This document shows, piece after piece, positions 3,567 through 20,446 of a DNA stretch of 20,508 nt; the first letter of the stretch is position 1, and every line of letters begins with the position of its first letter. Both the position numbers and the translations under genes were made by a program. Source of the DNA: a virus; the IMG/VR virus record IMGVR_UViG_3300034092_001819, positions 1 to 20,508 of that record; one strand, 5' to 3'. The notes under the pieces were generated by a model, which saw nothing but the letters and a program-made list of their open reading frames with translations, was not told the origin of the DNA and ran no database searches.

Positions 3567-5251
3567 ACATCATCGATTCGATCGTCGGCATTTTCTCTCC
3601 AGCCGCTCAGCTTCGTCGCATGGAAGCACGGGCCACGATTCAGCAGGTCAATAAACTGCTCGGAACTGCCAAAGGGCCATACGCAGCGGCAACGTTGAAT
3701 CGGCTCAACGCACTTCGCGGAGTCGTTCAAAAAGAAAACGAAGTCAGCAGCAGCCGGATTGATTTTCTCCGCGCTCAGTCGTGGGATCTGTACCGAGACA
3801 ATCCAAGTTGCCGAAAAATCGTCCGTTCCCTCGAAGCCAAGGTGATTGGCAAGGGAATGCACCCTGAATCGCTCGCAATGTACGCAGATGGCACACCAAA
3901 CGTACCATTTCGAGAGCGGGCAATGCAGCTCTGGGAGCAATTACAGAGCGGATTTGATGCTCGCGGACTACCAGGAAAAGGCGGTTTGACGATGGGATGC
4001 CAGCAGAGATTGGCGTTCCGCTCGGTGGTTTTGTCCGGTGATACGCTTTATCGAATCAAACCAATCAGTTCCGCCGAGCAATCACGCCGCAATTTGCCTA
4101 TCGCTATTGTTTTGCAACTGGTGGATACATGCAGACTGGCCAGCGAATCGGAGATTCTGCAGTCATCGTTGCCAGATGGGCATCGCGTCTTTCGTGGCAT
4201 CGAACTGAACGCCAATGATGAGCGAGTTGCTTATTGGGTCAAGAATACACTGATTTCAGACGCCGCAAATGCTCCAGCAACAGCAACACGAGTTCCGATC
4301 GACAAAATCGGCCATCTGTTTATGGAGGAAGACATTGACGAGCTTCGCGGTGTGCCGTGGTTTTCGTCTGCAATCCTGCGAGCAAGGCGAACGGATGATC
4401 TTGAATACAACGTTTTGACAGCATCAGCGATGGCCTCCTGCATGGTTGCGACCTATAGCAAGCCAACAGGGGCAACGAAACTCGGGCTGAATCAGGGATC
4501 TGAATACAATTCCAACTCTGCGGACGGTTCAGACCTCACCGACAGCGACGGCAACACGATCAACAAAATTCAGCCGGGAATGGTCGTAAACAAGGGGAAA
4601 GACGGCTCGTTTGAGCTTCTTTCGCCTAATCAGCCAAACATGAATCCAGAAGCGTTCGTGCAGCATCTTCAGCGAGGCACGGCGGCAGCGTTGCCAGGCA
4701 CTAAAGCCAGCACCGTAACGGGCGATTATCGTAACAGTTCATTCAGTTCTGAGCGTTCTGCAGATAACGATTGCTGGCCTGAAATTCAGATCGTGCAGGA
4801 GTGGTTCGCGTCTCATTATTGCCAGCCGATTTGGGAAACAATTCTTCGCACCGCAGTCTTTGAAGGCTACTTCGATGGCATCGTGTCAGCAGAAGAGTTT
4901 CAGTCTAGCCCAGAAATGTTTTCGGCGGCCAACTGGCAGGGGCCAGTCGCTTTGTCAATCAATCCGAAAGACGACGTTAAGGCGGCTGCAGATCGAATTC
5001 ACGCCGGTTTATCTTCGCTTCAAATGGAATGTGCCAAGATCAATGTGAACTGGCGAGACGTGTTAAACGACATCGCCGAACTTTACGAAGTGGCGGAAGC
5101 CAAAGGTATTCCGACGGAAGTCATCAACAACATCATGGGCATCGACGCGCAGGACCAAATGGCCGTGCAGCAGATGGAGACATCTAGCGAAGAGAAGTCG
5201 CCAGATGATGCTGTTGAGGATGATCTGATTGAGGAAGTCATCAATGCGTAA
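3563..5251 (+). CDS. Portal protein, lambda family
   Basis: The portal is the dodecameric ring at one head vertex through which DNA passes and on which the motor docks. It has 562 residues; lambda gpB has 533. Recognisable blocks are FLRAQSWDLYRDNPSCRK (about residues 68-85, the family's conserved N-terminal signature), the following VIGKG (94-98), the Gly-rich GDTLYR segment, and DELRGVPWFSSAIL (around 255-270), which resembles the RGVPWL block of lambda portals. The C-terminal part is helical with a long acidic tail (EEKSPDDAVEDDLIEEV), as in many portals. AGGAG at 3548-3552 gives a good ribosome site before ATG 3563. The stop overlaps the next start. Confidence in function is high. Confidence 0.95.
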   Translation: MNIIDSIVGIFSPAAQLRRMEARATIQQVNKLLGTAKGPYAAATLNRLNALRGVVQKENEVSSSRIDFLRAQSWDLYRDNPSCRKIVRSLEAKVIGKGMHPESLAMYADGTPNVPFRERAMQLWEQLQSGFDARGLPGKGGLTMGCQQRLAFRSVVLSGDTLYRIKPISSAEQSRRNLPIAIVLQLVDTCRLASESEILQSSLPDGHRVFRGIELNANDERVAYWVKNTLISDAANAPATATRVPIDKIGHLFMEEDIDELRGVPWFSSAILRARRTDDLEYNVLTASAMASCMVATYSKPTGATKLGLNQGSEYNSNSADGSDLTDSDGNTINKIQPGMVVNKGKDGSFELLSPNQPNMNPEAFVQHLQRGTAAALPGTKASTVTGDYRNSSFSSERSADNDCWPEIQIVQEWFASHYCQPIWETILRTAVFEGYFDGIVSAEEFQSSPEMFSAANWQGPVALSINPKDDVKAAADRIHAGLSSLQMECAKINVNWRDVLNDIAELYEVAEAKGIPTEVINNIMGIDAQDQMAVQQMETSSEEKSPDDAVEDDLIEEVINA

Positions 5252-7451
5252 GCGAAGCCAAAGAGATCAGGCGACGGCCGACACAAACTATCGATTTCTA
5301 AGCGTTCGGGCGGCAACGTTCAACGAGGAAACCAGAAGCGTTGAGGCGGTTATCAGCACTGAGCAGCCTGTCGACATGCCGGACTGGGGCCGACAGATGA
5401 TGGTGCCGGAAGTGCTTGTGCCATCCGGGGCTGAATTTCCATCAAGTCGACAGGTTCCGTTTCTTGATTCGCATCAACGTCGATCGGTCAAAGACCAACT
5501 CGGCTCTGCTCGTGAAATCAAGGTGAACGGAAACGAAATCACTGCAACGCTAGTATTTCGAAAGAGCAAGGAATCAGACGACGCACTTGGTGGTGTACGC
5601 GACGGACATATCACGGATGTCTCGGTCGGATATGACGTTTTGAAACGCCAGTTCATCGAGTCAGGTGCAAAGAAAACAATTGGAAATCGGACCTATGAAG
5701 GGCCGGTAAATGTTGTAACGAAGTGGCGGCTCCGGGAAGTCTCGTTGACTCCAATTGGTGCCGATGATCAAGCGAAGCTGCGAGGGCTGGACCCGGCGGC
5801 AGTCCGTTTCAAGTCCTCAGAAGAACAGGAAGAATTTGCAATGAATCCAGAACTCCGCGCTTTGCTGGTGTCAAAGGGTATGCCAGCCGACAACAACGAT
5901 GAACAGGCTCAGCGATGGCTGATTGACAACGCGGCAAAGCTCAGCGACGTCAAGAAGGAAGAAAAGAAGGAAGAACGCAGCCAGCAGACTCAGACTCTGC
6001 CAACTGCAGCCGATCTTGCGAAGCTTGTTGCCGACGCTACACGTCAGGCCGTTGCCGATCAGGCTGCAGCCCGCAAAGCGTTTGAAGTCGACGTCCGAGA
6101 ATTGTGCGAAATGGCCGACATGCCGGGCGAAATCGAAGCCTGTCGAGCACTCGAAGACTTGGCTGCTGTCCGAAAGCACATCAAGGACGCCAAAGCGAAA
6201 CAGGCTGAACATGTTCCGTATGGTGCAACTGTTCGCCATGTCTCAAGCGGAACGGAGCGACTTGAGGTTGATTTGCGTTCAGCTCTGACACTTACCGCGT
6301 GCCGAGCTGCGTTGAATGGCGATGAGGCCAAGCTCGAAAAGTATTACCCGTCAGCACAGCGAAGCAAGCAGGCGGACAATTTCCGTTATGCAACGTTGTT
6401 CGACATGGCAACAGAATACGTGCGGTCGCGTGGCATTCAGACGCTCGGTTTGACTCGTGACCAGATCGCAATCTGTGCAATGTTCGGCCCTGAAAAAGCT
6501 GGCATTCGTGCGGCCGCAGGCGGGGCAGCGTATCACGGGACAGGTTCATTCAGCAACCTGACTTTGGATGCCGTTAACAAGTCGATGATGATTGGCTATC
6601 AGGAAGTTCCAGCCACATGGCGTGGACCAATGAAGCAGGGTCAGTCGGCGACCGACTTCAAAAACATTCACAGGATGCAGTTGGGAGCAATTCCAAACCT
6701 ACCGGTCTGGAATGACTCTGTGCGGCCTGACATGGCGAGCATGGCGGACGGCAAGGCGACATATGCTGTCGAATGCCGATCGATCGGGATCGACTTCGGC
6801 TACAAGCTGATCGTGAACGACGACATGTCAGCTCTGACCTCAACACCAATGAAGTTGGGCGATGCTGCCGCACGAACTGTCAACACTGTTGCCTGGGCAC
6901 AGATTACCAGCAACCCGACAATGCGAGACGCTCAGGCGCTGTTTCTCGAAACGCCTACGGGCCTCCGATACAGAAAAAACCTGACGACTGGAACCGGTGC
7001 CCCAAGTTCAACGACACTCGGCACGTTGAAGGCGTTGATGCGTCTGATGCGTGGCGAAAACACGCCAGAGGGCACAGAGTCAGCGGATATTCTGAATCTG
7101 ACTCCGGCCTACCTGGTTGTTCCAGCATCACTGGAAACGACAGCAGAAGTGCTCGTGAATTCTATCTACGATCCGGGCTCAACCGGAGCGGGAACATTCA
7201 ACCCAACACGATCGCTTAAGCTGGTTGTTGAACCATTGCTGGATGCCGCATCGACAGTGGCTTGGTATCTGTTTGCAGAGCCAACACGGGTTGAAACTGT
7301 CGAAGTCACATTTTTGGCTGGACAGGAAACGCCACAGGTCCGCGAAGTTCGCGACGAGCACACTTTGGCCAGCACGTACTACGTGCTGCAGTCAGTGGCC
7401 GCCAAGGCTCTCGACCATCGCGGAATTCAGAAGCATAAGGGCGAAGCGTAA
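5244..7451 (+). CDS. Prohead protease / scaffold / major capsid protein fusion
   Basis: This single 735-residue polypeptide carries head maturation and shell functions. Residues about 15-190 match the HK97-type prohead protease (U35/S78). H77 in FLDSH and S127 in DVSVGY are the likely catalytic pair, with E165 in LREVSLTP a candidate third residue. Residues about 200-320 are a Lys/Glu- and Ala-rich helical linker that would serve as scaffold. From about 325 to the end is the capsid domain, with a Mu gpT-like block (LTPAYLVVPASLE, about residues 618-630). A TTG at 5229 is possible, but ATG 5244 has GAGG upstream and overlaps the portal stop. Fusions of this type are known in phages. Self-cleavage near the linker to release the shell subunit is expected from the family, but the exact site is not determined here. 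A candidate internal start lies at 5841. Confidence 0.9.
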   Translation: MRKRSQRDQATADTNYRFLSVRAATFNEETRSVEAVISTEQPVDMPDWGRQMMVPEVLVPSGAEFPSSRQVPFLDSHQRRSVKDQLGSAREIKVNGNEITATLVFRKSKESDDALGGVRDGHITDVSVGYDVLKRQFIESGAKKTIGNRTYEGPVNVVTKWRLREVSLTPIGADDQAKLRGLDPAAVRFKSSEEQEEFAMNPELRALLVSKGMPADNNDEQAQRWLIDNAAKLSDVKKEEKKEERSQQTQTLPTAADLAKLVADATRQAVADQAAARKAFEVDVRELCEMADMPGEIEACRALEDLAAVRKHIKDAKAKQAEHVPYGATVRHVSSGTERLEVDLRSALTLTACRAALNGDEAKLEKYYPSAQRSKQADNFRYATLFDMATEYVRSRGIQTLGLTRDQIAICAMFGPEKAGIRAAAGGAAYHGTGSFSNLTLDAVNKSMMIGYQEVPATWRGPMKQGQSATDFKNIHRMQLGAIPNLPVWNDSVRPDMASMADGKATYAVECRSIGIDFGYKLIVNDDMSALTSTPMKLGDAAARTVNTVAWAQITSNPTMRDAQALFLETPTGLRYRKNLTTGTGAPSSTTLGTLKALMRLMRGENTPEGTESADILNLTPAYLVVPASLETTAEVLVNSIYDPGSTGAGTFNPTRSLKLVVEPLLDAASTVAWYLFAEPTRVETVEVTFLAGQETPQVREVRDEHTLASTYYVLQSVAAKALDHRGIQKHKGEA
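5827..5843 (+). promoter_or_regulatory. Candidate internal ribosome binding site and start for scaffold-capsid part
   Basis: An AGGAAG at 5827-5832 lies 8 bases before an in-frame ATG at 5841, codon 200 of the fusion, exactly where the protease domain ends and the helical linker begins (MNPELRALL). Initiation here would give a 536-residue protease-free scaffold-capsid product. The sequence elements are seen directly; use of the site is inference from comparison with nested scaffold starts such as lambda Nu3. Confidence 0.4.
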
Positions 7452-16087: not shown

Positions 16088-16437
16088 GTAGGCGAGAATT
16101 TAAAGTTATCAAGGCTGGCGGCGGTGGAGGCGGTGGCCAGCTGATCCAGTTCCAGCCAACAGACGTCTGCGAAGGCATTGGCTTGACGTGTGATTGCGTA
16201 ACGGCGACTGTGCTGACAGCCTCCTGCGGGTCATCAGTTCAGCCGGGTGACGTCGTGCAGGTCTGGGACCAATCACGCGGCTGGTTTCAGATGCCGGAAG
16301 CGTTGCTGTTCGCCTCGGTCGGCTGGGCGCATAAGGTTAAAGTCACCGAGGCCGAACAATACGATCTGCCGTTCGATGTCGGACCCTGTCGCTATGTCGT
16401 CATTTCAATGGACTGCATTGAGCAGGAGCCCGCCTAA
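16084..16437 (+). CDS. Gly- and Cys-containing small tail protein candidate
   Basis: This encodes 117 residues. Near the N-terminus is a run of seven glycines (residues 12-18). A Cys cluster follows (C29, C36, C38, C48), with further cysteines at about 102 and 111. The middle has a beta-rich segment (GDVVQVWDQSRGWFQMPEALL) and a VKVT strand. AGAGGAG at 16067-16073 precedes ATG 16084. The ATG overlaps the previous stop, and the next ATG overlaps this stop. A flexible glycine hinge and cysteines like those in the next gene suggest it joins or attaches the Cys-rich protein to the tail. No family was recognised, and the adaptor role is inference. Confidence 0.6.
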   Translation: MSRREFKVIKAGGGGGGGQLIQFQPTDVCEGIGLTCDCVTATVLTASCGSSVQPGDVVQVWDQSRGWFQMPEALLFASVGWAHKVKVTEAEQYDLPFDVGPCRYVVISMDCIEQEPA

Positions 16438-18179
16438 TGGCGTTCGACGTCTTCGGGCATGGTCCGCAATATCTGCCGTACACAAACCCGCAGTATTATT
16501 CCAACGGGCCGGACAGGAAGAAAGGCCCGTCGAAATGCCGGGGAGTTGTCGGCGGATGTTACGACGGAGCGCCAGAACCACACGACCACTCATGTTGCTG
16601 CGATCCATGCCGACACGTCTACGTCGATGTTTGCGGCTCTGGGCATTGTTGCCGGTGTATTCCGAAGGCAATTTGTGCCGTATTTACTCCGGACACCGTG
16701 ACCGCACAGTGCAAAGCTAAGTCGTGGACGATGACGCCGACGACCGCGGACGGCCGATCGTCCTACACGTTCGCCCCAAATGGCGATCAGATCACGCTGA
16801 GCGTCGGCACAGAAACTGCGGAGGAAGGCTACGTTGGCGAATGCACATGGAAGCTGGTTTCTGCCGCACTCAGCATCAACGAAAGCCGACTGATCGACCA
16901 TAGCGGGGCGGTGCATTGTCAGGCACCTCCCGACTTTACAATTGAGGGATTCAATTACGTTCGGTACGACAGCGAGGGAACGCCATCGGATTGCTACGGC
17001 ACAATTACGTTCACCGAAAAGACATTTGCGACAGTTCCGTTCGTTTACCGCTGGCAGGGACAGGAAGAGTTCGCGTCTGTTACCTGCGGAAGTTGCTCAC
17101 AGATCTGTCAGGTTCTCTGCGTTCGTCGTGGCAATGAATACGAATCAGATTACGCCCGAGTGGATTTCCTTTGGGACGCGGACACAGAACGATGGAACGC
17201 AAACGACACCAGCGGGCACTACATTACGCTCCATCGAGAGTACGGAAATTGCTATCTGAAGCTCGAGTCAATTACGCCTGCAACGCTGCAGGGTGACTTA
17301 GTGTTGATTGACGAAACAGCCTGCTCAATCGGAATGGATTTAACGGTCGTCGATGAGGTTGGTGATTACATCAAAATCAGTTGCAACCCCTGTTCATGCT
17401 GGCGGTATTTGTGCGGGGCGTTTCGTTGTGCCTGTCGTGAACTCTGCGGCGTTGGGGTGTTGGCTGGTGAACTGGTCGAGCCGTTTACGCTGAGTTGGGA
17501 CACCGACGCTCTGCGATGGGGTGACGACACTTTTTCAGTGACGCCGACTCGTGGAGAAAATGGCGAGTGCATGGTGTCAGTCACGGGCTTTGAAGATCCT
17601 GTTGAGGTCACAGAAACGAACGACGGATCATTCGGTTTTGCGATTTCTCAAAGCGCGGCTGATTCCTTGTCCGAAGGCTCCGCGACGTACTATTACTTCC
17701 GATGCAAAAACTGTGACGTTGACTGTGCAGGCGGAACGTGTCTTTCTGAATGCGAAGACGTGCCATCTGTTCTCTATGCGGAACTTAGTGCAGCACCGTG
17801 GACGGAAATGCTGGGTTGCAATCCTGCAGAACTCTGCTTCGAAACGATCACGTTCCCCTTGGTGCAGGTGTTCGTTTCAACCATTGACAATCCGGCTGGC
17901 GAATGGCGATGGATCGGCAGTGCAATCATCTCCTGCAAAAACTGCATTGGAGCAACGCGAAAGAATTATCTGGTAAGTGTTGATATCGGCTGCGATGGTA
18001 CTGGCACGTTCAGCGTGTACCATCCCGACGCATCTGCTCAATGTATTCAGAACATCAGTTTCACTTTGCCCTGCAACGGCTCGGCACCGTGGGATTTCTC
18101 GTTTGGGCCTTATACTGATTGTGATGGGCTAAATGGTTGCTGCGATGAGGGCGGGTTTATTCTGGAGATCACGGAATGA
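16437..18179 (+). CDS. Cys-rich modular tail fibre-like protein
   Basis: This encodes 580 residues with 44 cysteines (about 7.6%). The N-terminal 80 residues hold 11 of them, including CCC at 53-55 and CCRC at 71-74. The rest is built of roughly 80-100-residue beta-rich modules, each ending in a CxxC (C217/C220, C316/C319, C423/C426, C500/C503). Repeated phrases such as FLWDADTERWN and LSWDTDALRWG show duplication. There is no signal peptide or membrane segment, so the cysteines would bind metal or form disulfides after release. AGGAG at 16424-16428 lies before ATG 16437. The position just before a glycosyltransferase and after the hub suggests a fibre, tip or receptor-binding protein. Its family is not recognised; function is inferred. 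Confidence 0.75.
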   Translation: MAFDVFGHGPQYLPYTNPQYYSNGPDRKKGPSKCRGVVGGCYDGAPEPHDHSCCCDPCRHVYVDVCGSGHCCRCIPKAICAVFTPDTVTAQCKAKSWTMTPTTADGRSSYTFAPNGDQITLSVGTETAEEGYVGECTWKLVSAALSINESRLIDHSGAVHCQAPPDFTIEGFNYVRYDSEGTPSDCYGTITFTEKTFATVPFVYRWQGQEEFASVTCGSCSQICQVLCVRRGNEYESDYARVDFLWDADTERWNANDTSGHYITLHREYGNCYLKLESITPATLQGDLVLIDETACSIGMDLTVVDEVGDYIKISCNPCSCWRYLCGAFRCACRELCGVGVLAGELVEPFTLSWDTDALRWGDDTFSVTPTRGENGECMVSVTGFEDPVEVTETNDGSFGFAISQSAADSLSEGSATYYYFRCKNCDVDCAGGTCLSECEDVPSVLYAELSAAPWTEMLGCNPAELCFETITFPLVQVFVSTIDNPAGEWRWIGSAIISCKNCIGATRKNYLVSVDIGCDGTGTFSVYHPDASAQCIQNISFTLPCNGSAPWDFSFGPYTDCDGLNGCCDEGGFILEITE

Positions 18180-20155
18180 GTTGTGATCAGTTTCCGACAG
18201 GATCTCGCAAGCATCAGATTTGCACCGGTGAAGCCGATTTGCCACTGGGAAAAATCAACGCCTATCGAGCTAAGTGGGGGCTGGATTTACTGGCTGAATC
18301 TAAGTCATCCGGAACGACTCGTGTTGTGGTGCATCAAGGCCAGGCACCAGTTAAGGTGCGAAGAGTTGAGCATTCCAGACGGCTGCCGTGCAAGTGCTCT
18401 GTAAAGACGCCAACACAAGGGCCGGGAACGGAGTTGATCGAACTGCTAAAAGGCTGGAAAGTTCCTCCATGCCAGCAGTGCAAAGACCTTGCGGCAAGAA
18501 TGAACGTCTGGGGCGTCTCAGGCTGCCGTGAGCGGATCGCAGAAATCGTCGAAGACATATTCCCACGCGCGAAAGAATGGCTCGCAGCAAACAAGCCGTG
18601 GGCACATGCGATGCTGCCGGAGATTGTCGAGGACGCTGGCATCAGGCTCAAACTTCGTCACGACGTTGGAAAGGCGATTGACGCGGCAGACGCTAAGCAG
18701 CTCCGTAGATCCGCCCAATATGTGAGCCACGGGCACAAAGCTTCACCGGCGACGTTTGTCGATGCCGCTGAGCCTATCTTCCGCATCAGGACAGCCGTCC
18801 GGACATCGTTCCGCGAAGTTAGGACGCTGGAGAAAACCATAGCGTCATTGCAGGCAGCAGGCTTTGAAACGCCGACAATTTATGCGGACAAAAACGCGGT
18901 CGATGTGCCAAGTGCAGTTCAATGGCCCGAGCAACTCGGGGCGTTCCGGTCATTCGTCCGAATGTCTGAGCACATGCTGCAGGATTATACGGGCTGGATG
19001 CTGCTGTGTGAGGATGACGTTGAACTTAAAGACGGGGCGGCCGATTATCTGCGGACGCTCAATATCATGCTCGATCAGGTGGTGAGTCTCTACGTTTCAG
19101 CAAAGCAGGACGGTTTGCTTGCTGGCGATGGGCTCAGTGAAATAGTCGGAGACATGCACGGTTCGCTGGCGTATTTGATCCACTCGTCGACGTTGCAGCA
19201 TGTTCTGAACTCACGGACGTTTCGCGAATGGACCTCGGACCAAAGAGTGGACAGGGCATTTTGTAAAGCGGTTGCGGAGATCGGTGCGAAGTTGCTCTGT
19301 CCTCGCCCGGCACTGGCTCAGCATATCGGCCTGACATCAACACTGGTTGCTGGTCGCAGGCTTGACGCTGCGAGGACGTCGCACAATTACAGACCGGACA
19401 GGCACCAGTCTGGACTCGTCACGCTAATCACACCGACTGGCGACCGGCCGGATGCGTTTGCGATGTGCGAGCGATGGGTAAGGCAGCAACGGTACACCGG
19501 GCCGATTCAGTGGATTGTCATTGACGACGGACACGGTCCGACAGAGGTCAACGACGCTGATGTCGTGTTGCGACCGGAGCCAATGACGGGGCACAGTCTT
19601 TGCCGAAATCTGCGGCAGGCATTGCCACACATCAAGGGCCAGCACGTCTTGATTATCGAGGATGACGACTACTACGGGCCGGACTACATTTCTGTGATGG
19701 TCGGCAGACTTCAGCACGCGGATTTGGTCGGAGAGTTCGGAGCCAAATACTACTACATTCGCGAGCGACGATGGCGGCACAACGTCAACGAAAAGCACGC
19801 CAGTTTGTGCCGCACTGGATTCAATCGAGCCGTTTTGCCGACATTCGAAAAGTGCATCACCGGCACAGATCACCCGAGCGTTGATTTGCGGCTATGGCAG
19901 CAATGGTCGGGATCGGCATTGTATTGGACCGATGAGGCCGGGATGTCGCGAATGTGCGTCGGCATCAAAGGCGTTTCAGGTCGGCAGTCATACGGATGGA
20001 AGCCGTCAAAGAATGCTCAGCACGACGACGGCAGCAAGTTGAAACAATGGCTCCGAGATGATGCGGCCAATTACTCAGTAGGAGGAATCAACTTTACAAT
20101 CTGTCCGGGTTCGCCAAGATCCCCTGGCACATCGAAAACAGCCCACCGCGGCTGA
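18176..20155 (+). CDS. Two-domain glycosyltransferase with Cys-rich N-terminal domain
   Basis: This encodes 659 residues. Residues about 55-150 hold a Cys-rich helical region (C72/C74, C99/C102, C117, with GPGTELIELL and WGVSGC), probably zinc-binding. Residues about 202-400 form a first GT-A domain with an acidic EDDVEL motif at 279-284. Residues about 413-605 form a second GT2-like domain with VTLITPTGDRP, a VIDDGHG at 448-454 and a metal-binding EDDDYY at 495-500. Such enzymes transfer sugars from nucleotide sugars to a protein or glycan. The start overlaps the Cys-rich gene stop (ATGA), with GGAG at 18164-18167. The last 20 or so residues (from about 640) look unlike the domain and overlap the minus-strand gene, so the C-terminus may have been altered by recombination. 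Donor and acceptor are unknown. Confidence 0.8.
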   Translation: MSCDQFPTGSRKHQICTGEADLPLGKINAYRAKWGLDLLAESKSSGTTRVVVHQGQAPVKVRRVEHSRRLPCKCSVKTPTQGPGTELIELLKGWKVPPCQQCKDLAARMNVWGVSGCRERIAEIVEDIFPRAKEWLAANKPWAHAMLPEIVEDAGIRLKLRHDVGKAIDAADAKQLRRSAQYVSHGHKASPATFVDAAEPIFRIRTAVRTSFREVRTLEKTIASLQAAGFETPTIYADKNAVDVPSAVQWPEQLGAFRSFVRMSEHMLQDYTGWMLLCEDDVELKDGAADYLRTLNIMLDQVVSLYVSAKQDGLLAGDGLSEIVGDMHGSLAYLIHSSTLQHVLNSRTFREWTSDQRVDRAFCKAVAEIGAKLLCPRPALAQHIGLTSTLVAGRRLDAARTSHNYRPDRHQSGLVTLITPTGDRPDAFAMCERWVRQQRYTGPIQWIVIDDGHGPTEVNDADVVLRPEPMTGHSLCRNLRQALPHIKGQHVLIIEDDDYYGPDYISVMVGRLQHADLVGEFGAKYYYIRERRWRHNVNEKHASLCRTGFNRAVLPTFEKCITGTDHPSVDLRLWQQWSGSALYWTDEAGMSRMCVGIKGVSGRQSYGWKPSKNAQHDDGSKLKQWLRDDAANYSVGGINFTICPGSPRSPGTSKTAHRG

Positions 20156-20346
20156 TAACTGACAACAGTGTACGGCTTCTTAAAACGTTCATTGGCAACT
20201 GGTTCATCGTCGTCACTGTCGACAACACGCTCCACGGTGCACTCGACGACTTTGCTGCCAGTCTTTGACTCGTGAATTGAAAAGCCGACAAACAGCATCA
20301 CGGACAAGCAAGCATGGTACACAAAGAAACGATCTGCGATATTCAT
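20071..20346 (-). CDS. Small membrane-anchored protein on the opposite strand
   Basis: This encodes 91 residues on the minus strand. The N-terminus (FFVYHACLSVMLFVGF) is a likely single membrane segment or uncleaved signal anchor. The rest is soluble, with an acidic SDDDE patch and a C-terminal strand-rich region (YTVVSYQPRWAVFDV). AGGAGGG at 20360-20354 lies 7 bases before the ATG, a very good ribosome site, which is the main reason to call it real. It overlaps the last 85 bases of the glycosyltransferase gene tail to tail, so one of the two ends may be newly formed. It could be a phage moron or a host gene at a prophage border. Function unknown. Confidence 0.65.
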   Translation of the reverse strand: MNIADRFFVYHACLSVMLFVGFSIHESKTGSKVVECTVERVVDSDDDEPVANERFKKPYTVVSYQPRWAVFDVPGDLGEPGQIVKLIPPTE

Positions 20347-20353
20347 TTTGACA

Positions 20354-20360
20354 CCCTCCT
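20354..20360 (-). promoter_or_regulatory. Ribosome binding site of the minus-strand gene
   Basis: On the minus strand AGGAGGG is followed after 7 bases by ATG 20346-20344. This is a near-ideal Shine-Dalgarno and fixes the start. A TTGACA lies further upstream on the same strand (20395-20390) and could be a -35 element, but no good -10 follows at 16-18 bases. Confidence 0.6.
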
Positions 20361-20446
20361 ATTTCCAGGTTTTCAAATCTGGAGGGGAATGTCAAGCATG
20401 AACCGCAAAGAATCATAGTTACGGCCCCGGCGTCATGAACCGGACC

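Follow-up and report, generated by a model that had tools for sequence, protein, structure and literature searches.

The window analysed here, which is the entire IMG/VR virus record (20,508 bp), carries, in this order, genes for a terminase large subunit, a portal-position product, a protease fused to the major capsid protein, and a tape-measure protein, which identifies it as the morphogenesis block of a tailed phage. The head protease and the major capsid protein are encoded by a single 740-aa ORF (5229-7451; phrog_4523, E 7e-116). At the end of the block lie a 117-aa gene, a 580-aa cysteine-rich protein (CYS) and a 659-aa enzyme (Table 1). Re-reading of the ORFs confirmed the latter two proteins, the 44 cysteines and the 4-nt ATGA overlap between the two frames (...GGAATGAGT...), all as given in a preliminary description of this DNA. 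Both frames were under strong purifying selection when compared with the nearest relative (dN/dS 0.034 for CYS and 0.087 for the glycosyltransferase). The start-stop coupling had also been taken as a possible sign that CYS is the substrate of the enzyme; 1- or 4-nt overlaps were found at 9 of the 18 gene junctions of the window, so the ATGA overlap alone is uninformative on this point.

Table 1 Location of the features discussed, in the window unless a locus is named
Feature	Position	Strand	Basis or remark
Joining protein, 117 aa	16084..16437	+	private N-terminus, poly-Gly linker, conserved Cys domain
CYS, Cys-rich protein family of the putative distal tail, 580 aa, 44 Cys	16437..18179	+	28/44 Cys conserved; all-beta prediction
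Three-domain enzyme (GTEL, GT-A-like, GT2), 659 aa	18176..20155	+	profile, HMM and fold evidence
GTEL domain, aa 1-170	18176..18685	+	42-member alignment; similarity to L006; helical model
CQQC in GTEL core, aa 99-102 (third conserved Cys at aa 117)	18470..18481	+	alignment
GT-A-like domain, aa 207-400, with CEDDVE acidic motif at aa ~279	18794..19375	+	HMM and fold neighbours
GT2 domain, aa 414-633, with EDDDYY motif	19415..20074	+	PF00535
Small opposite-strand gene, 91 aa, one membrane-like segment	20071..20346	-	frame kept in L003
Exchangeable cassette	16141..20377	.	85.3% nucleotide identity to L003 over 4.24 kb
Integrase-like ORF beside the L150 tail module with GT2+GTEL fusion	L150:11860-13038	-	by eye
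HxKG domain	L141:10224-11951, L006:5971-6804, L133, L134, L136, L138, L139		fused to or beside GTEL

The Cys-rich protein and the three-domain enzyme

Cysteine accounts for 44 of the 580 residues of CYS (7.6%). Repeated CxxC modules, on which the preliminary description had relied, did not exceed what this composition yields (6 motifs against a shuffle mean of 3.2, P = 0.096), and the conserved feature was instead the position of the cysteines, as 28 of the 44, including those of CCCxPC and CCRC, were retained across 14 relatives when a position was counted as conserved if present in at least 10 of the 14 sequences. CYS was predicted to be all-beta (model pLDDT 61, pTM 0.59), and a PDB fold search with the predicted model returned no confident match. 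Searches against Pfam and PDB sequences gave no match for CYS, and PHROGs gave nothing below E 0.5. By tblastn, 50,697 phage records contained no relative of the window CYS, the window enzyme, two GTELs or a divergent Cys-rich relative. Hydropathy analysis revealed no hydrophobic signal segment in CYS or in GTEL, so CYS would be assembled in the cytoplasm, where its cysteines would be reduced; these may serve metal binding or form disulfides after lysis.

The enzyme consists of three parts, namely a helical N-terminal domain (GTEL), a GT-A-like middle domain and a C-terminal GT2 domain. The two glycosyltransferase domains with acidic motifs that had been described earlier were both recovered (CEDDVE and EDDDYY), but the N-terminal part had been missed. 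The GT2 assignment rests on a PF00535 match of 25.5 bits (1.4e-5), above the Pfam gathering cut-off of 23.3, and EDDDYY at aa 495 falls inside the best-conserved stretch of the aligned GT2 relatives (consensus IIEDDDYY). The middle domain (aa ~207-400) had no Pfam match, and hence none to Glyco_transf_25. It was matched by an HMM built from three glycosyltransferases (L086/L137/L144; E 2e-5), and is homologous to glycosyltransferases that are fused to GTEL in L086, L091 and L109 or encoded adjacent to it in L137 and L144.

Although the AF2 model of the GT-A-like part was weak (pLDDT mostly 34-80), structure prediction of both proteins, which had been proposed as a check, gave a GT-A fold for the middle domain and no confident fold match for CYS. 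The middle domain resembled many GT-A enzymes, nearest among them Mimivirus R699, COLGALT1, POMGnT1 and ppGalNAc-T2 (GalNAc-T2), at VIA Z ~10, with rmsd of 3-4 A over 158-187 residues on this low-confidence model, and Foldseek returned LH3 (E 8.6e-4). In the model, protein-glycosylating enzymes are thus among the closest folds, which is a statement about fold and not about family: the GT25/LH3-COLGALT1 collagen glycosyltransferases and the ppGalNAc-Ts have the GT-A fold in common with the middle domain, and at 8-19% identity the likeness is at the level of fold only. DNA-base glucosylation was considered on account of a weak PHROG 854 match (E 0.022) and is disfavoured by the position of the gene in a tail operon.

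We named GTEL after the GPGTEL motif in the first ~170 residues of the enzyme. The domain has an N-terminal motif, C..F..GSR...IC.G.., followed by a core, GPGTEL...CxxC...MNxWG...C, and an alignment of 42 members showed invariant G, G, L, C, C, M, G and C. The window enzyme carries this invariant core and is encoded after a Cys-rich protein, in agreement with the definition of the family, and its GTEL shares 35% identity over 175 aa with an L006 protein. The predicted model was helical, with pLDDT 71-91 in most blocks and a disordered linker at 42-78. Stand-alone GTELs had no match in Pfam or NCBIfam, and the L096 GTEL had none in PHROGs. The CxxC pair is absent in L139 and the whole core in L144, with the N-terminal motif kept. 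In L136 (9885-11084) and L139 (9917-11464), a DUF6171/phrog_13558 Cys-cluster domain occurs in a GTEL protein whose core is missing or devoid of the CxxC pair.

A conserved unit on mostly unrelated tails

Comparison of the window with its nearest relative, L003, by blastn and tblastx revealed one common region (the cassette in Table 1), and nothing detectable was shared with the rest of the 18-kb L003 locus on either side; L004 carries the same region as L003. Identity fell from 23-29/30 to 4-11/30 at the left edge (~16140) and from 18-26/30 to 8-9/30 at the right edge (~20365). The left edge lies directly behind a poly-glycine stretch, MSRREFKVIKAGGGGGGG, in the 117-aa gene, and in the joining protein that this gene encodes the short private N-terminus and linker are followed by a conserved Cys-containing domain of ~97 aa. 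The joining protein is homologous to a 254-aa protein of L006 (E 9e-13). Also inside the cassette is the 91-aa minus-strand gene, which overlaps the stop codon of the glycosyltransferase; outside this overlap, changes relative to L003 were distributed 7/7/24 over the codon positions (dN 0.09, dS 1.2), and the hydropathy of its product peaks at 1.71 at aa 7-25.

A scan of viral contigs, keyed on the Cys-rich protein, yielded more distant relatives. Thirteen lineages showed a fixed order, in which a protein with a variable N-terminus, a glycine-rich linker and the conserved Cys domain is followed by the Cys-rich protein and then by the GTEL protein. Pairwise comparisons among 14 phages were significant for 91/91 pairs of the conserved joining domain and 85/91 pairs of GTEL-protein N-termini. 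The corresponding counts were 1/78 for the N-termini of the joining protein, 11/66 for tape-measure candidates and 6/45 for the intervening gene, the last two having been chosen by simple rules so that a few may be wrong. The Cys-rich family itself gave 91/91, a figure that is not independent because this protein was the search key. As the viral scans were keyed on the short motifs CCC[DN]PC and GPGTEL, both families are under-sampled and biased towards these motifs.

These comparisons showed, at the level of sequence, that the conserved Cys domain, CYS and the GTEL protein are conserved together as a unit, which is attached to mostly unrelated tail machines and joined to them at the glycine linker. 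The gene order after the tape measure suggests a distal position, in which the predicted all-beta CYS would form part of the tail tip or of a fibre and contact the host, and the conservation of the distal unit on mostly unrelated tails suggests that it serves a shared target. Modular phage receptor-binding modules combine an N-terminal tail anchor with an exchangeable distal part. The unit described here resembles them in being a distal tail unit that recombination at a joint transfers from phage to phage, and differs in that mostly unrelated tails carry a conserved distal side and the gene for a modifying enzyme is included in the exchange. Neither GTEL nor the Cys-rich family is catalogued, and both would serve as markers of the distal tail in a group of phages even without the glycosylation step considered below.

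GTEL, its Cys-rich neighbours and its enzymes

In viral metagenomes, the gene for GTEL lay directly downstream of one for a Cys-rich protein or formed a single ORF with it. Among 45 redundancy-filtered loci found by GTEL alone, with loci found via the Cys-rich protein excluded, the upstream neighbour contained at least 4% cysteine in 29, compared with 13/236 of the remaining plus-strand ORFs, 150 aa or longer, from the same loci (Fisher 3e-18, which is too small owing to the phylogenetic relatedness of the loci; the effect is large nonetheless). In 35 of the 45, the upstream neighbour had the highest cysteine content of all ORFs at the locus, and an earlier GTEL set gave a Cys-rich neighbour in 23/32 against 9/171 in the background. 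Loci L098, L215, L222 and L124 had no Cys-rich neighbour. Most of the Cys-rich neighbours were not detectably homologous to the window CYS. Conversely, in loci found through CYS, a GTEL protein was encoded next door in 13/13 lineages with an intact downstream side.

GTEL also shares one ORF with a Cys-rich segment in L151 (41 Cys/517 aa), L197 (37/236) and L105 (8/120). Such fusions indicate that GTEL may itself be structural, and the enzyme that carries it could then be a virion component of the tail tip acting on the host envelope at entry. We regard this as very improbable, because the nucleotide sugars on which glycosyltransferases depend are unavailable outside the cell.

Of 57 non-redundant GTELs, 34 stood alone, 15 had a C-terminal partner, 5 formed the C-terminus of a larger protein with an enzyme part, and 3 were those joined to a Cys-rich segment. 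The partners were diverse. GT2 is joined to GTEL in the window and in L150, Mannosyl_trans3 (L140, 4.7e-38), a GT4-like enzyme (L137) and a methyltransferase (L138) are fused or adjacent to GTEL, and a weak Stealth-like match was found in the partner or next gene in L106. Seven of the 13 CYS lineages have, in place of a recognised glycosyltransferase, a fused or adjacent domain of ~230 aa with an ExxP motif, in which HxKG is invariant and an SGTFYWFR-like stretch conserved; it had no match in Pfam, NCBIfam or PDB. This domain, which may resemble RgpF-type transferases, is possibly a transferase. The GTEL protein of L135 (9812-11344) continues with a weak match to phosphoribosyltransferases and what looks like a HAD-like part, which is an unusual combination for a domain associated with tails.

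As GTEL is fused to sugar enzymes on either side, and also to Cys-rich segments, it is best read from sequence as a domain that docks on the Cys-rich protein. The earlier suggestion that the enzyme acts on its neighbour gains support from this docking-like domain and its two kinds of fusion, though not from the gene overlap on which it had been built. Probably, the small conserved domain holds different sugar-adding enzymes beside the Cys-rich tail protein.

The absence of an enzyme from 34 of the 57 GTELs implies that the basic job of the domain is not glycosylation. The original role is probably seen in stand-alone loci such as L097, L101, L103 and L123. At these and similar loci, a stand-alone GTEL follows a very Cys-rich protein (8-12% Cys), and inspection of loci of this type revealed no recognised sugar enzyme nearby. 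GTEL could therefore help Cys-rich tail proteins to fold, take up metal or assemble, with its CxxC/CxC and additional cysteine binding metal or exchanging thiols, and the fused enzymes would be exchangeable cargo with another virion substrate. The invariant Cys triad of GTEL is consistent with such a role, as are Cys-rich partners that are often mutually non-homologous, which would suit a general helper of Cys-rich proteins, and the synthesis of these cysteines in a reducing cytoplasm. We nevertheless consider it unlikely, if deserving of serious attention, that this accounts for the whole, since random cargo would not account for the repeated occurrence of sugar enzymes on either side of GTEL, and since L139 lacks the cysteine pair and L144 the entire core. 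Distances among CYS sequences were uncorrelated with those among GTEL sequences (rho 0.11, Mantel p 0.31), and correlated with those among joining domains (rho 0.57, p 0.001). The lack of correlation speaks against a tight co-evolving interface, and GTEL need not bind CYS tightly.

The GT2 domain has a wider distribution. It had 116 viral relatives in the scan, most of them stand-alone proteins of ~240 aa, and GTEL or the Cys-rich family was present in 4 of 80 fetched GT2 loci (two lineages). The co-occurrence of enzyme and Cys-rich protein that had been proposed as a check therefore failed for the glycosyltransferase itself, whose GT2 homologues mostly occur without CYS, and held for GTEL. 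Taken together with the constant presence of a GTEL protein beside CYS, this indicates that the constant partner of CYS is GTEL and the glycosyltransferase an exchangeable attachment; GTEL, not the enzyme, is specific to the Cys-rich protein. Within the L003-L082 series (e.g. L023, L024, L050), GT2 often lies beside small enzymes and a Cys-poor protein of ~370-395 aa, perhaps a capsid protein.

There are well-known phage glycosyltransferases that change the surface sugars of the host, and the commonness of GT2 in phages without Cys-rich proteins would fit an enzyme that acts on the host surface, so as to exclude superinfection or mask receptors, and happens to be encoded at the end of the tail operon. 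The membrane-like 91-aa protein encoded beside the enzyme and the long sugar-gene clusters of L144 and L006 point the same way. Against this, the enzyme has no transmembrane segment (hydropathy maximum 0.88), inspection by eye found no lipid-carrier flippase-like gene beside it in the window or L003, its gene is placed in the late tail operon, and GTEL ties it to Cys-rich tail proteins. On this evidence, host-surface modification appears improbable.

Proposed decoration of CYS and relation to known systems

Returning to the proposed docking of an enzyme on CYS, fusions and synteny are consistent with a course in which helical GTEL would bind the folding CYS in the cytoplasm as a docking or assembly module and, where it carries or neighbours a glycosyltransferase, would deliver that enzyme to CYS. 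The GT-A and GT2 domains would then put a short sugar chain on CYS, the simplest division of labour being that the GT-A-like domain adds the first sugar and GT2 extends it, and the sugar would tune the tail tip in its stability, binding or recognition. This reading would make the region a portable adhesin module of the distal tail, with an exchangeable glycosyltransferase docked on CYS through GTEL, and we put the full chain, including sugar addition, at a little short of an even chance. The broader proposal, that GTEL recruits swappable enzymes from several glycosyltransferase families as well as a methyltransferase to decorate the adhesin, and that the unit moves between unrelated tails at the glycine linker, is a tentative one that we would sooner doubt than accept.

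Both ingredients of this proposal have precedents. In Caulobacter, the flagellin O-glycosyltransferase FlmG has an N-terminal flagellin-binding domain on a glycosyltransferase (PMC7591256). Like FlmG, the window enzyme appears from its sequence to be a cytoplasmic glycosyltransferase with a non-catalytic N-terminal domain; substrate binding by that domain has been shown for FlmG and is proposed here. FlmG combines TPR with a GT-B-like catalytic domain, whereas the window enzyme combines GTEL with GT-A-type domains, so it is not a member of the FlmG group, though it may work alike. As for phages, glycosyltransferases encoded by mycobacteriophages glycosylate the phages' own capsid and tail-tube proteins (PMC12363180), the virion-glycosylating enzymes reported there being Che8 gp110 and Corndog gp38 (Freeman et al. 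2023, via PMC12363180). By analogy, the window enzyme would likewise add sugar to a virion protein of its own phage. The portion of that source consulted reports no GTEL-type domain or Cys-rich partner for the Che8 and Corndog enzymes, and the substrate in the window would be a distal tail protein. In a BFVD structure search, the second match was Gp87 of Mycobacterium phage Ardmore (E 8e-4).

Phage virion glycosylation and a substrate-binding domain on a glycosyltransferase are thus already known, and what would be new is their combination in a transferable distal-tail cassette; the literature searched did not yield a substrate domain and glycosyltransferase in such a cassette with an uncatalogued docking-type domain. 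If the proposal is true, phages tune a host-contact protein by swapping the enzyme that decorates it as well as by mutation or domain swapping, a dedicated docking domain guides the swap, and glycosylation of a phage adhesin becomes directly testable. GTEL and its partner would then also provide a tool for directing glycosyltransferases to a chosen protein.

Among Planctomycetota genomes, GTEL is rare, with at least 2 of 392 positive (a lower bound, as part of the first-look candidates were scored), which indicates that the domain is mostly phage-borne. L150 lies within a 478-kb Pirellulales contig, beside an integrase-like ORF and a histidinol-phosphate-aminotransferase-like gene (both by eye). 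From the contig and the integrase-like ORF nearby, L150 is an apparent and possibly inducible prophage of this phage kind in a planctomycete (Pirellulales, Planctomycetota).
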